Shown in pieces: positions 51,496 to 56,501 of a stretch of DNA of 64,000 nucleotides. Source of the stretch: a candidate division WOR-1 bacterium RIFOXYB2_FULL_46_45 (lineage in GTDB: Bacteria > Margulisbacteria > WOR-1 > XYC2-FULL-46-14); the NCBI GenBank assembly GCA_001771585.1, contig MEUE01000001.1, positions 62,001 through 126,000 on the forward strand, read 5' to 3'. Position 1 is the first letter of the stretch. Every line of letters begins with the position of its first letter. The notes beneath the pieces are model-generated. The model was not told the DNA's origin. It searched no databases and worked only from the letters and a program-made list of their open reading frames with translations. The position numbers and the translations under genes are program-made.

Positions 51496-51786
51496 ATGAC
51501 AAAAAAAGATATACAGATCATCATAAAAAAACATGAAGACATTCTGGCGGCTTACGGGGTAAAATCGATTTCTCTTTTTGGCTCTTATGTAAGAGGAGAA
51601 CAAAGAGAAAATAGCGATATTGATCTGTTGGTTGATTTTAAAGATAAAAGCTATGAAAACTTTATAAACCTGATTTTTTCCTTGGAAAATATTTTGGGAA
51701 AAGAAGTGAGTGTGGTAACCCCCGAAGGGATCAGCCCCTACATAAAACCATATGTATTGAAGGAGGCTGAAAAAATTGAAGGATGA
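51496..51786 (+). CDS. MNT-domain nucleotidyltransferase (MntA-type antitoxin)
   Basis: 96 aa minimal nucleotidyltransferase. The signature GSX10DXD is exact: G29-S30 and D41/D43 in LFGSYVRGEQRENSDIDLLVDF. In the studied MntA-HepT system the MNT protein AMPylates the HEPN toxin and so blocks it. It overlaps the HEPN gene by 11 bases. Confidence 0.92.
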   Translation: MTKKDIQIIIKKHEDILAAYGVKSISLFGSYVRGEQRENSDIDLLVDFKDKSYENFINLIFSLENILGKEVSVVTPEGISPYIKPYVLKEAEKIEG

Positions 51787-52108
51787 TGGGGTTTTCCTGC
51801 GGCATATTCTGGACGAAATTGATTACCTTCTAAAAAGAACGAAAACGTTAACTTTTGATCAGTTGATGGATGATGAAACCTTAAAAAGAGCGCTAAGCCG
51901 AAGCCTAGAAATAATCGGTGAGGCATCCAAAAATCTTTCTGACAAGTTTAAAAACAACCATCCCGAAGTGGAATGGAAAAAAATTGCCGGATTAAGGGAT
52001 AAGCTTATCCATTCTTATTTTGGAGTCGACTGGTATACCGTTTGGGATGTCGTAAGAATTAAAATTCCTGAGCTTAAAAACCAACTGGAAAAATTAAAGC
52101 ATGGCTGA
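51776..52108 (+). CDS. HEPN (DUF86/HepT-type) toxin
   Basis: 110 aa. The RNase motif RX4HXY is intact: R74, H79 and Y81 in [12 protein letters not shown], the canonical DUF86 site. The rest is the expected helical bundle ([20 protein letters not shown] and [17 protein letters not shown]). Its stop overlaps the guaA ATG by 8 bases, so an essential gene is translationally coupled to a toxin. Confidence 0.92.
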
Positions 52109-53648
52109 GCACTCTCTAGTCGTAATCCTCGATTTTGGCGCCCAATACTCGATGCTGATTGCCCGCCGGGTTAGAGAAGCCAATGTTTACTGCGAAATAC
52201 TTCCCTATAACACTACCGCCAAAGAACTAAAAAGGCGCAATGTAAAGGGGATTATCCTGTCGGGAGGCCCCAATTCCGTTTACGATAAAAACGCCCCTCA
52301 CCCCGATCCCCAGCTTTGGAATTTAAATGTTCCAATTCTGGGAATCTGCTACGGTATGCAGTTGATCGCCGAAGCGCTCAAAGGAAAAGTCAAAAAAGGG
52401 AAAAAGCGGGAATACGGCAAAGCGGAAATCCGGATTGATCCGTCAAACGCCCTCTTTTCCGGACTACCACAGTCAATCTCCTGCTGGATGAGCCACGGCG
52501 ATTCGGTATCAAAACTTCCTCCCGGATTTATCGCGATCGGCCATACCAAAAATACTCCCAATGCCGCGATCGGTTCAAGCAAGAAAAATATCTTTGGGGT
52601 GCAATTCCACCCGGAAGTGGTCCATACACCGCTCGGCTCCGAAATTATTGTCAATTTTCTTTATAAAATCTGCGCCATCAAGCCGACCTGGACCACCGAA
52701 CACTATATCGAAACCGCCTGCCGTTCATTAAAAGAGACCCTCGGCAAGCAAAAAATCCTCTGTGCCTTGTCCGGCGGGGTTGATTCAACCACCGTTGCCG
52801 CATTGGTCCACAAAGCGGTCGGAAAGCAATTAACCTGCATGTTTATCGACCAGGGCTTCATGCGCAAGAATGAAGCGAAAAAAATCAAAGAACTTATCTC
52901 CAAAAACTTTCGCATTAAAGTTTTTTATATTGACGCTTCGCAAAGGTTTTACGAAAAATTAAACGGGGTAATTGATCCCGAACAAAAAAGAAAACTGATT
53001 GGGACCGAATTTATCCGCGTCTTTGAAGAAGAGGCAAAAAAACTGGGGAAAATTCCTTTCCTGGCGCAAGGGACACTTTATCCGGATGTGATTGAATCGG
53101 CAGTCCCGTCAAAAGTAACGACCGCGCATACGATTAAAACCCATCACAATGTCGGCGGACTGCCGGAGAAGATGGGCTTTAAGCTGGTTGAGCCGCTGCG
53201 GCTTCTTTTTAAGGATGAGGTTCGTTTGCTGGGGAAAGATTTGGGGATCGCGGAAGAGATCATCACCCGCCAACCCTTCCCCGGGCCGGGGCTGGCAATC
53301 CGCATTATTGGTGAAGTTACGCCGGAAAGAGTCAAGATTTTACAGGAAGTTGACGATATTATTGTTACTGAGATCAAAAACGCCGGATATTACAAAAAAC
53401 TCTGGCAGTCGTTTGGAGTTCTGCTTCCGATCAGGACGGTTGGGGTTATGGGCGACCAAAGGACCTATTTAAACACTGTCGCGGTTCGAGCGGTAACTTC
53501 GGTCGACGCGATGACCGCCGATTGGGCTCGCCTACCTTATGAGCTTCTAGAAAAAATTTCAAACCGCATTGTGAACGAATGCCCGCTGGTCAACCGCGTG
53601 GTCTATGATATCTCCTCAAAGCCGCCGTCGACTATTGAGTGGGAGTAG
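52101..53648 (+). CDS. guaA: GMP synthase (glutamine-hydrolysing)
   Basis: 515 aa, full length. The class I glutaminase domain has the Cys in [14 protein letters not shown] and FHPEVVHT. The ATP pyrophosphatase domain has the P-loop [33 protein letters not shown] and [17 protein letters not shown]. The C-terminal end KPPSTIEWE is the conserved product-binding tail. Its last nine codons form the first copy of a 28-bp direct repeat. The upstream HEPN gene overlaps its start. Confidence 0.97.
53619..53646 (+). repeat. Direct repeat copy 1, guaA 3' end (attachment-site-like)
   Basis: 28 bp that code for KPPSTIEWE plus the first base of the TAG stop. It is identical to 54371-54398. guaA 3' ends are known integration sites for genomic islands. 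Confidence 0.85.
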
Positions 53649-53654
53649 CGGGAG

Positions 53655-53663
53655 TGCTACAAT
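53655..53663 (+). promoter_or_regulatory. Extended -10-like promoter of the second MNT-HEPN pair
   Basis: TGCTACAAT, one base off TGCTATAAT, lies 9 bases before the ATG at 53673, with no Shine-Dalgarno between. It partly overlaps a GTAGC/GCTAC inverted repeat (53645-53660). The element would bring its own promoter and a nearly leaderless mRNA. Confidence 0.5.
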
Positions 53664-53672
53664 AAAGCCATA

Positions 53673-53993
53673 ATGCCAAAAAACGTAAAAGATTTACTCA
53701 TCGATTTAAAAAAAGGCCTTAAAAATATCTATCGCGATAGGTTGCGTACACTATTTCTTTATGGCTCATATGCTCGAGGAGACGCAAATGCCGGCTCTGA
53801 TTTGGATGTGGCGGTGATTATCAATGACTTCTCCGATATAGGGAAAGAAATTGAGACAACCGGGCAACTTGTTTCCGAGCTGTCGCTAAAAAACAATCTG
53901 GTGGTCTCTCTCCATCCCGTTAGAGAGGAAAAATGGGAAAACCCCGGCTCTCCTTTTTTGTTGAATATTAAAAAAGAAGGAGTAGCAATATAA
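53673..53993 (+). CDS. MNT-domain nucleotidyltransferase, second copy
   Basis: 106 aa. GSX10DXD is exact: G31-S32 and D43/D45 in YGSYARGDANAGSDLDVAVI. It differs clearly from the first MNT protein (51496-51786), so it is not a local duplication. It forms a pair with the HEPN gene one base downstream and lies between the two 28-bp repeats. Confidence 0.9.
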   Translation: MPKNVKDLLIDLKKGLKNIYRDRLRTLFLYGSYARGDANAGSDLDVAVIINDFSDIGKEIETTGQLVSELSLKNNLVVSLHPVREEKWENPGSPFLLNIKKEGVAI

Positions 53994-53994
53994 A

Positions 53995-54372
53995 ATGACA
54001 GAGGAACAACAGGCACTGCTTAATAAATCACAAGAAAGCATCTCTGCTGCCAAATTACTGTTTGGCGAAAACTATTATGGGTTTGCGGCTGCCAGAGCTT
54101 ATTACGCCATGTTTTATGTCGCAGAAGCGTTGCTGTTATCTAAAAAATTATCCTTTTCAAAACATTCTGCAGTAATTGCCGCATTTGGAGAACACTTTGC
54201 AAAGAACAATATTATCGATCAAAAATTCCATCGTTATATGATTAATGCTTATGAGTACCGGGAAATCAGCGATTACTCTCCGGATGAGAATATCTCCAAA
54301 GAGACCGGAGAATTAACAATCAAACAGGCCGAAGAATTTCTGGATATTGCTTCCTCTTTTATTGCCAAGTAA
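53995..54372 (+). CDS. HEPN domain protein, second copy (no RX4-6H motif)
   Basis: 125 aa of the PF05168 HEPN type: KSQESISAAKLLFGENYYGFAAARAYYAMFYVAEALLL is the family core. No RX4-6H RNase motif is found. The related position reads YEYREISDYSP. Minimal HEPN proteins of this kind may act by binding rather than cutting RNA. Its TAA stop runs into the second copy of the guaA repeat. A GAAGGAG site lies upstream. Confidence 0.88.
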   Translation: MTEEQQALLNKSQESISAAKLLFGENYYGFAAARAYYAMFYVAEALLLSKKLSFSKHSAVIAAFGEHFAKNNIIDQKFHRYMINAYEYREISDYSPDENISKETGELTIKQAEEFLDIASSFIAK

Positions 54373-54398
54373 GCCGCCGTCGACTATTGAGTGGGAGT
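54371..54398 (+). repeat. Direct repeat copy 2, duplicated guaA 3' end
   Basis: Identical to 53619-53646. In the guaA frame it reads KPPSTIEWE followed at once by TGA, so it still holds a complete GuaA tail and stop. This suggests that it is the original guaA end displaced by insertion of the 752-bp segment 53647-54398. Confidence 0.85.
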
Positions 54399-54484
54399 GA
54401 GTTGTTGGACAAAAGACAAAACAAAAATCAAATTTAGTGCAATTTTTACCCTGGATGTTACGATAAATAGGTAAGGAGAAATGA

Positions 54485-55531
54485 ATGGCACCACCTATTG
54501 TTTTGGGGACTAAAAACACAACTTATCCTGTATCTACCCATAAGAATAAGAAAAAGGGGAAACCGATCAATTGCGTTTTTCGCAAGCCAGATAATGTGAA
54601 TAAAATGCTAGGGACTTACCCTGAATTTGCCAGCAATCCGCTCCCCGCTGAAATCCAAAAAAGTCCTTTTTATAAACACTTGCTTTGCCCTTCTTCAACC
54701 CGTCATTTTAGAGGTTTCCCTGTTTTTAGGGATACCCGGTTATACGAAACGGTTAAAAATCTTCCCCGCGTGTTAAGGGATCAAAGGGTTTGTATCCTCT
54801 ATCCCGCCTCCGGCAGCCACCTTGCCCCCCTGGACTTGATTAATCATATTTTTGAACAAGAAGACAATAAAATCAATTCGGCTAAAATAATTCTTACAGA
54901 AATAAAAGAAGCAGCTTTGAAAGAATTAAGAAATCTTCTCAATAAATTAGCAAAAGAAGGCGTTTACGCCGGATTAAAAGAGACTCAAGCAAACTACCCT
55001 AACGGAGGATCTGAAACGACTTTTGCTTTTAGCTATAACGGAAAAGAAATAACACTGGTATTTGCGCTAAATATGAGCGGAGATGATTATTATAAGGAAG
55101 AATATTTATCTGAATCGGATGTTTGGGTTATCCATGATCCCGGCGTAGGGGATTCCAAAAGCTCGTTTAAGCTCCTTAAATCCTTTCTAGTATCAGCCGG
55201 AAACAATAAGATTGTTAATCCCCCCGTCATTGTAATGGAAAACATTAATGATTATTCTGCACCATCCATTATGCTTTCTCTTATTTTTAATCCCCCAAGC
55301 AAAAAAGAGGATGAAACAATGTATTACAACGAGGACTTATTGCCCGGCCAAAAAATTAAAATTCCTTTTCCCTATGGACATCGCGTTAATTATGGGGAAT
55401 TGCCTGAAACAGGAGCCGCTTTCTACCAATCAGCAATCGTCTATACGCCAGATATTAATTTATTTAAACAATCTCCATCGGATATAAAAGCATTGCTTGA
55501 TAAAGCCCATTCCTCGATTAGTGAGCCCTAA
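54485..55531 (+). CDS. Hypothetical protein with a Rossmann/methyltransferase-like core
   Basis: 348 aa with AAGGAG before the ATG. I do not recognise the family. Residues ~90-180 look like a class I SAM-methyltransferase fold: RVCILYPASGSHLAPLDLI (a Gly/Ser loop after a strand), then KIILTEIKEAALKEL (strand, acidic residue, helix), and later DVWVIHDPGVGDSKSSFKLL. The usual GxGxG is not present. The N-terminus is basic (THKNKKKGKPINCVFRKPD). It lies just beyond the guaA repeat and overlaps the convergent mltG end by 14 bases. It may belong to the same accessory region as the operon at 46-51 kb. Confidence 0.7.
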   Translation: MAPPIVLGTKNTTYPVSTHKNKKKGKPINCVFRKPDNVNKMLGTYPEFASNPLPAEIQKSPFYKHLLCPSSTRHFRGFPVFRDTRLYETVKNLPRVLRDQRVCILYPASGSHLAPLDLINHIFEQEDNKINSAKIILTEIKEAALKELRNLLNKLAKEGVYAGLKETQANYPNGGSETTFAFSYNGKEITLVFALNMSGDDYYKEEYLSESDVWVIHDPGVGDSKSSFKLLKSFLVSAGNNKIVNPPVIVMENINDYSAPSIMLSLIFNPPSKKEDETMYYNEDLLPGQKIKIPFPYGHRVNYGELPETGAAFYQSAIVYTPDINLFKQSPSDIKALLDKAHSSISEP

Positions 55532-56501
55532 CCCTTGCCCTCTGATGCTCCTCCCATGTCCTTGAAAAAATATGGCTTCCGTCTTTTTTGGCAACAAAAA
55601 AGAAATAATCGGTTTTAGCCGGATAAATGGCCGCTTTGATTGAATCGAGACCAGGATTGCAGATCGGTCCCGGAGGAAGTCCGCGCCGCTTATAGGTATT
55701 GTAAGGCGAATCGACTTCGAGCTGTTTGTATAATACCCGCTTGGTCGGGTTCTCCAGCGCGTACTTGACCGTCGGATCGGCGGCAAGGGGCATTTTGGCG
55801 TCAAGCCGGTTGTAAAAGACCGAAGCGATCACCGGACGCTCTTCCGGCTTCTGCGCCTCTTTTTCGACAATCGAAGCCATTGTCAAAACCTCATGCAAAC
55901 CAAACCGGGCTAAGCGGTAATTCTCATTCCAGTACGGAAGAACCTTCTCCTTGAAGCGGTTAAACATCATGTTTATCAAAATCGACGGAGAACTCCCCTT
56001 TTCAAGAATATAGGTATCAGGAAATAAATACCCTTCAAGCGTTGCGGCAGAGTTTAAGAAATCCTCCACATGCAGATAGCCCTCTTTTTCAAGAATCTTC
56101 CCGATCTTGTAAACCGAAGTCCCTTCCGGAATAACCGCACGGATTTGAGATCCTTCAACCGTTTCTCCCTTTCTTATTTTTTTTATGACTTCCAGGTTCC
56201 CCATCCCGGGAGTCAGAGAATAAGTCCCCGCCTTGAGTTTGTCCTCCTCCCCTAAAACTTTCAGGGTAAAAAGAAAAAAGGTCCTGTTGGAAATGATTTT
56301 TTCGGAGACCAAAATGTCGGCAATTTGGCCGGGGGTGGAACCCATGGGGATGACAATGTCGGCAGCATAAGCACAGTTAATAACCAAGAACCAAGATACA
56401 AACATCAAACAAACACCAATAAACAATTTCCAATAATCAAACGGAAAAACTAGAAATTTGAAATTGTTTCGGATTTCGGATTTCGGATTTCGGATTTTCA
56501 T
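55518..56501 (-). CDS. mltG: Endolytic murein transglycosylase MltG
   Basis: 327 aa inner-membrane enzyme that cuts new glycan strands. The LysM-like part ADIVIPMGSTPGQIADILVSEKIIS and the catalytic YceG domain are clear: LEGYLFPDTYILEKGSSPSILINMMFNRF holds the catalytic Glu region and LTMASIVEKEAQKPEERPVIASVFYNRL is the second core block, followed by YNTYKRRGLPPGPICNPGLDSIKAAIYP. The first ~40 residues, including the membrane anchor, are encoded by a simple-sequence repeat (56380-56497). Its ATG overlaps the ruvX stop. Confidence 0.93.
   Translation of the reverse strand: MKIRNPKSEIRNNFKFLVFPFDYWKLFIGVCLMFVSWFLVINCAYAADIVIPMGSTPGQIADILVSEKIISNRTFFLFTLKVLGEEDKLKAGTYSLTPGMGNLEVIKKIRKGETVEGSQIRAVIPEGTSVYKIGKILEKEGYLHVEDFLNSAATLEGYLFPDTYILEKGSSPSILINMMFNRFKEKVLPYWNENYRLARFGLHEVLTMASIVEKEAQKPEERPVIASVFYNRLDAKMPLAADPTVKYALENPTKRVLYKQLEVDSPYNTYKRRGLPPGPICNPGLDSIKAAIYPAKTDYFFFVAKKDGSHIFSRTWEEHQRARVRAH
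56380..56497. repeat. Degenerate repeat with four CGGATTT units, encoding the MltG N-terminus
   Basis: 56470-56497 is four perfect copies of CGGATTT. Toward lower coordinates it passes into AT-rich approximate repeats (CAATTTCCAATAATCAAAC, ACCAAGAACCAAGATAC). Translated on the minus strand it gives KIRNPKSEIRNNFKF and a hydrophobic stretch. I recall similar SEIRNP-coding repeats in genomes of other uncultured bacteria, but cannot check this here. Confidence 0.8.

Follow-up and report, generated by a model that had tools for sequence, protein, structure and literature searches.

Few two-gene modules of prokaryotes are more abundant than pairs of genes encoding a minimal nucleotidyltransferase (MNT) and a HEPN protein. 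Toxin-antitoxin (TA) pairs are common cargo of integron gene cassettes, small units in which a recombination sequence lies directly behind the stop codon. The presence or absence of MNT-HEPN pairs in syntenic loci has been noted as a sign of mobility (PMC2701414), so their coming and going between related genomes is already known; the available part of that report contains no mention of "direct repeat" or "integrase" and describes neither boundaries nor integration sites. The 3' ends of guaA, on the other hand, are targets of islands with tyrosine integrases, for which GAGTGGGA was reported as the cutting site (PMC7775301), and several IMEs at guaA, one of them carrying TA cargo, are described in PMC5704250, which also defines CIMEs by att-like flanking repeats and the lack of integration or transfer genes. 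These two papers bear out the statement, made in an initial annotation of the DNA analyzed here, that guaA 3' ends serve as integration sites.

The analyzed stretch of DNA (64 kb, hereafter the window) carries a guaA gene whose 28 terminal bases recur farther downstream with a period of 752 bp, counted as the unit with one repeat copy (Table 1). The initial annotation had described the two copies as identical, the first as the real end of guaA, and the second as the same tail read in frame to its own TGA; all of this was confirmed, as the match is exact, the guaA assignment is supported by Pfam, and copy 2 translates as ...KPPSTIEWE followed by TGA. Exact 28-mer pairs are expected by chance about 3e-8 times in 64 kb. 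Beyond the two copies, no further match to the 28-mer with up to three mismatches was found in the window (0 in 100 shuffles), and a 22-mer core of the repeat had, at the same tolerance, no third site in the 1.70-Mb genome. Shadow frames aside, the MNT and HEPN genes are alone at gene size between the repeats, no recombinase ORF was found there, and a promoter-like element precedes the pair, so that the annotated cargo of one MNT and one HEPN gene, the integrase-free interval and the candidate promoter all stand. Six PF00589 matches were found in the genome, none of them at the guaA locus.

Table 1. Features of the guaA locus (positions in the window).
Feature	Position	Strand	Evidence
guaA (GMP synthase, target gene, intact, 515 aa)	52101..53648	+	Pfam GATase, GMP_synt_C
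Repeat copy 1, AAGCCGCCGTCGACTATTGAGTGGGAGT: nine final guaA codons and T of the TAG stop	53619..53646	+	Exact 28-bp match
Inserted segment between the repeat copies, 724 bp	53647..54370	+	Pair absent here in guaA relatives
Extended -10-like element TGCTACAAT, possible promoter of MNT-HEPN	53655..53663	+	Consensus match only
MNT (minimal nucleotidyltransferase, antitoxin-like, GSX10DXD)	53673..53993	+	PF01909, E=7.5e-10
HEPN (toxin-like)	53995..54372	+	PF05168, E=3.2e-17
Repeat copy 2: orphan guaA tail, then in-frame TGA	54371..54398	+	Exact 28-bp match
348-aa lineage-specific gene, right of copy 2	54485..55531	+	No Pfam match
mltG-like gene, convergent; behind guaA in many relatives	55518..56501	-	

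To the right of the pair, copy 2 and the 348-aa gene, mltG follows 1.9 kb past guaA. The 348-aa protein has two more relatives in the same genome, two in the nearest relative compared (G073) and none elsewhere; its gene is probably the native right neighbor, lying outside the element, which would make the 752-bp unit the element proper. Directly upstream of guaA lies a class I pair, MntA (with GSX10DXD) and HepT (with RX4HXY) at 51496-52108, the stop of HepT overlapping the start of guaA, which is thus sandwiched by two MNT-HEPN-type pairs; no flanking repeat was found around this upstream pair.

As described in the available part of PMC7641770, class II HEPN/MNT modules (PF05168/PF01909) share with the pair behind guaA the gene order, both Pfam domains, the GSX10DXD motif of the MNT and the lack of RX4HXY in the HEPN, where REISDY is found instead, as in class II. 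The toxicity tests in that part of the paper were carried out with class I pairs and not with class II HEPN, and the pair described here may be called toxin-antitoxin-like by its family resemblance. The HEPN stop codon TAA (54370-54372) has as its final two bases the first two of repeat copy 2.

The closest described elements are the guaA islands and IMEs (GIsul2, ATE-1, the IncP island and ICERspD18B), which insert at the same site, the guaA 3' end, and have the same outcome, with the gene end kept and a second copy at the far end. The direct repeat in the window likewise contains the gene end, and the cutting site of guaA-specific integrases (PMC7775301) falls inside it. However, those elements are far larger (28.5 kb for ICERspD18B) and carry a tyrosine integrase, whereas the unit in the window has 752 bp, two genes and no recombinase, and an own integrase of the tyrosine (P4) type is absent from the locus. 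As in a CIME, there are att-like repeats at both ends without integrase or transfer genes. A CIME arises, however, by decay of an ICE or IME, whereas no island relics were seen here between the repeats, and the minimal layout returns at numerous unrelated targets. Integron cassettes resemble the unit in their small size and in the recombination sequence behind the stop codon; these cassettes have, however, an attC hairpin, whereas the sequence behind HEPN is the tail of the host guaA.

Occupancy of the site was compared across the phylum, with G073 as the nearest relative and none of the genomes belonging to the same genus; the exact empty site, with guaA running straight into the sequence at 54399, was seen in none of them. 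A search for the guaA tail pattern gave a match in 65 of the 74 phylum genomes searched, with two tails in this genome only and no second tail in the other 73. The guaA gene of G073 is 82% identical to that of the window, and convergent mltG stands directly behind it with no pair between; in 18 relatives mltG lies close behind guaA, and none of them has MNT-HEPN there. Within the repeat stretch the G073 gene differs at several bases, whereas the two tails in the window are identical, which points to recent copying or to the lineage's own gene as the template. The initial annotation had proposed a search for the same 28 bp at other MNT-HEPN loci; the guaA tail was found at none of those in 80 GTDB relatives, and two guaA tails were likewise absent from 50 other genomes in which close relatives of the pair occur. 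On these samples the idea that cassettes flanked by guaA tails are widespread was rejected.

Genomes elsewhere with two guaA tails were considered as further cases, and none was seen to enclose MNT-HEPN. Their small intervals hold a methyltransferase-like gene (G552), a transposase-like gene (G771), a tandem 87-bp repeat (G811) or a repeat element (G449). The G771 gene (L261; G771:C8:87518-88594) is RAYT-like by eye, and the second guaA tail behind it carries about 67 guaA codons. Orphan guaA tails were found in G632, G223 and G706, and also on viral contigs; those in G632 (L265; G632:C22:4549) and G223 (L266) lie far from guaA or on another contig, and the G632 match of about 27 bp has nearly the extent of the repeat in the window.

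The survey of direct repeats around MNT-HEPN cassettes, begun after the window case had been seen, covered 161 loci of one HEPN subfamily (80 from GTDB relatives, 80 regions from 395 Desulfobacterota genomes, and the window), all from assemblies and mostly from metagenomic ones. In these loci 139 cassettes were defined, with the gene order MNT-HEPN in all, and direct repeats with a score of at least 25 were sought within 600 bp on each side, with pseudo-cassettes of equal length from these loci as controls. Flanking repeats were present at 24 of 135 cassettes compared to 62 of 5279 control windows (1.2%; p ~3e-21), and at 16 of 127 when dispersed and low-complexity cases were dropped (p ~3e-12), these p-values being indicative because the control windows overlap. 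Most repeat-flanked cassettes have periods of about 740-1080 bp, with repeats of about 26-114 bp, and some of the other flanking repeats are dispersed or palindromic intergenic sequences; for about 80% of the MNT-HEPN cassettes no flanking repeat was detectable. The repeat-flanked loci yielded no tyrosine-recombinase ORF, and no terminal motif common to the element ends was seen by eye. MNT-HEPN matches numbered none in E. coli genomes and two in plasmids, and strain-level empty sites were obtained from neither. A related pair on plasmid pSYLA of Synechocystis PCC 6714 (L413) lies inside a BREX operon, between pglX and pglZ.

The guaA case probably belongs to a recurring class, in which MNT-HEPN mini-islands lie between duplicated 3' ends of tRNA or housekeeping genes. 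A tRNA gene is present within 500 bp at three of 134 loci, and at each of the three a piece of the tRNA is repeated on the far side of the pair: for tRNA-Glu 42 bp running from the anticodon to CCA, for tRNA-Pro about 35 bp with the start two bases ahead of the anticodon, and for tRNA-Lys 29 bp of the 3' part. Where the upstream gene is co-oriented, its 3' end through the stop is copied behind HEPN in 5 of 79 cases (a PemK-like gene, a RecD2-like gene, guaA, argS and the repetitive locus L156) compared to 2 of 2344 mismatched pairs. The same copying among other genes of the same loci was found in 2 of 370 cases, both tandem gene families by eye (Fisher test; p-value: 0.002). Without L156 the comparison becomes 4/79 against 2/370 (p-value: 0.01, or 1e-4 with the tRNAs added), and the p-values for 3'-end copying including tRNAs range from 1e-4 to 3e-5. 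In a relative of the same class outside these 79 (L066), the 3' end of secA is copied behind HEPN. The identity of argS is based on Pfam, and RecD2-like, PemK-like and secA were named from sequence. Further gene-end candidates are a beta-propeller gene (L148) and a TPR gene (L120), the repeat of the latter touching the contig end. The insertion target varies between loci while the anatomy of the cassette is common to them, and since both repeat lengths and targets vary, no single recombinase or core can serve all.

The right junctions indicate where the unit ends. In the guaA, RecD2-like, tRNA-Pro and secA cases the copied tail starts 1 to 16 bases ahead of the point where the HEPN stop codon ends, so that part or all of this codon is given by host-derived sequence; the distance from HEPN to the copied tail is 8 bases for argS and 14 bases for tRNA-Lys. 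The last HEPN codons would accordingly seem to mark the end of the mobile unit.

Mobility of related pairs was also seen in one cyanobacterial genus, where the same pair (92-94% DNA identity) stands in differing neighborhoods, with homology limited to the repeat-to-repeat unit. A kinase-flanked site is filled in two of these cyanobacterial genomes and empty in another that has the pair elsewhere. As the cyanobacterial repeats are dispersed sequences and not gene ends, these cases support mobility of the pair in general rather than a mechanism acting at 3' ends.

The initial annotation had left two readings of the guaA segment, a minimal element moved in trans or what remains of an island that lost its integrase. 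We regard it as probable that the segment is a minimal integrative element without an integrase, with MNT-HEPN as its sole cargo, inserted at the guaA 3' end. On insertion of the 752-bp unit at that end, the left junction would retain an intact guaA and the right junction would receive an orphan copy of the 28 terminal guaA bases, adjoining the final HEPN codon, the host-derived tail then completing the HEPN stop codon. Movement of the unit would depend on a site-specific recombinase supplied in trans, for which a tyrosine integrase is the most likely candidate, as tRNA and guaA 3' ends are the usual targets of such enzymes, and an addictive property of the pair may retain a segment that recombination between the repeats would otherwise remove. 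The minimal element of the annotation is favored by the recurrence of its anatomy at secA, argS, RecD2-like and PemK genes and three tRNAs, and the movement in trans is inferred.

The second reading would make the segment a CIME-like remnant of a guaA-specific island, from which integrase and other cargo were deleted to leave an addiction module between attL and attR. The known tyrosine-integrase islands and IMEs at guaA 3' ends, some of them with TA cargo, and the orphan guaA tails on viral contigs speak for such an origin, but random decay would rarely yield so uniform a remnant as the same compact layout, of similar size, at unrelated targets. Nor does stepwise decay of a larger island account well for the four cases in which the copied tail starts at the HEPN stop, and the identity of the repeat copies leaves little time for such decay. 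The comparative data therefore disfavor the remnant, which we consider unlikely.

The repeat might also be a long target-site duplication, in which the host gene end was copied at insertion by a staggered cut and fill-in or by template switching, possibly aided by MNT or HEPN. The identical tails, probably copied from the lineage's own gene given the differences in G073, would fit this, as would the changes of repeat length and target between loci and the HEPN stop completed by the copied tail. Two of the tRNA repeats, however, start no more than two bases from the anticodon or right at it, as with tyrosine integrases. Moreover, duplications made by known transposases are short and of fixed length, and to our knowledge neither MNT nor HEPN cuts and joins DNA, so that we hold this explanation to be improbable.

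Finally, it is very improbable that gene-end duplications simply arise everywhere, are as a rule removed by recombination and persist around TA pairs because losing the pair is punished, with no special mobility involved, since, even though several other direct repeats in the same loci enclose TA-like genes (PIN, DUF5615 and UPF0175, including a module array at L314), plain duplication would not put a single-copy foreign pair between two tails of its target, and related pairs stand at different places in related genomes. The array at L314 (G632:C113:3500-11500) consists of TA-like modules (a VapC-like PIN, an unnamed pair and MNT-HEPN) separated by the same repeat of about 45 bp, and adjoins PemK and Fic-like genes. 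Direct repeats of 57-171 bp surround PIN, HicB-like, DUF5615, UPF0175 and MNT-like genes at L099, L321, L325, L344 and L376. As these other repeats also enclose TA-like genes, small addiction modules in general may show the pattern; the modules of other toxin families in the same loci (3 PIN and 1 PemK) are too few to compare.

With similar modules found between duplicated gene ends in unrelated microbes, the pair appears to travel as a tiny mobile element. Extended to the family, the minimal-element reading becomes more tentative: class II MNT-HEPN pairs could be widespread two-gene elements without a recombinase, of about 0.75-1.1 kb, with insertion sites behind tRNA and housekeeping genes at their 3' ends, a terminus in the last HEPN codons and a stop codon borrowed from the host copy. 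In the literature examined, neither ends nor target sites of such pairs are given. The defined boundaries, with duplicated gene 3' ends and a junction at the HEPN stop, make the movement of solitary chromosomal TA pairs testable, and show how small integrative elements can be. If the pairs do form such a class, it would account for the movement of toxin-antitoxin modules that stand alone on chromosomes.
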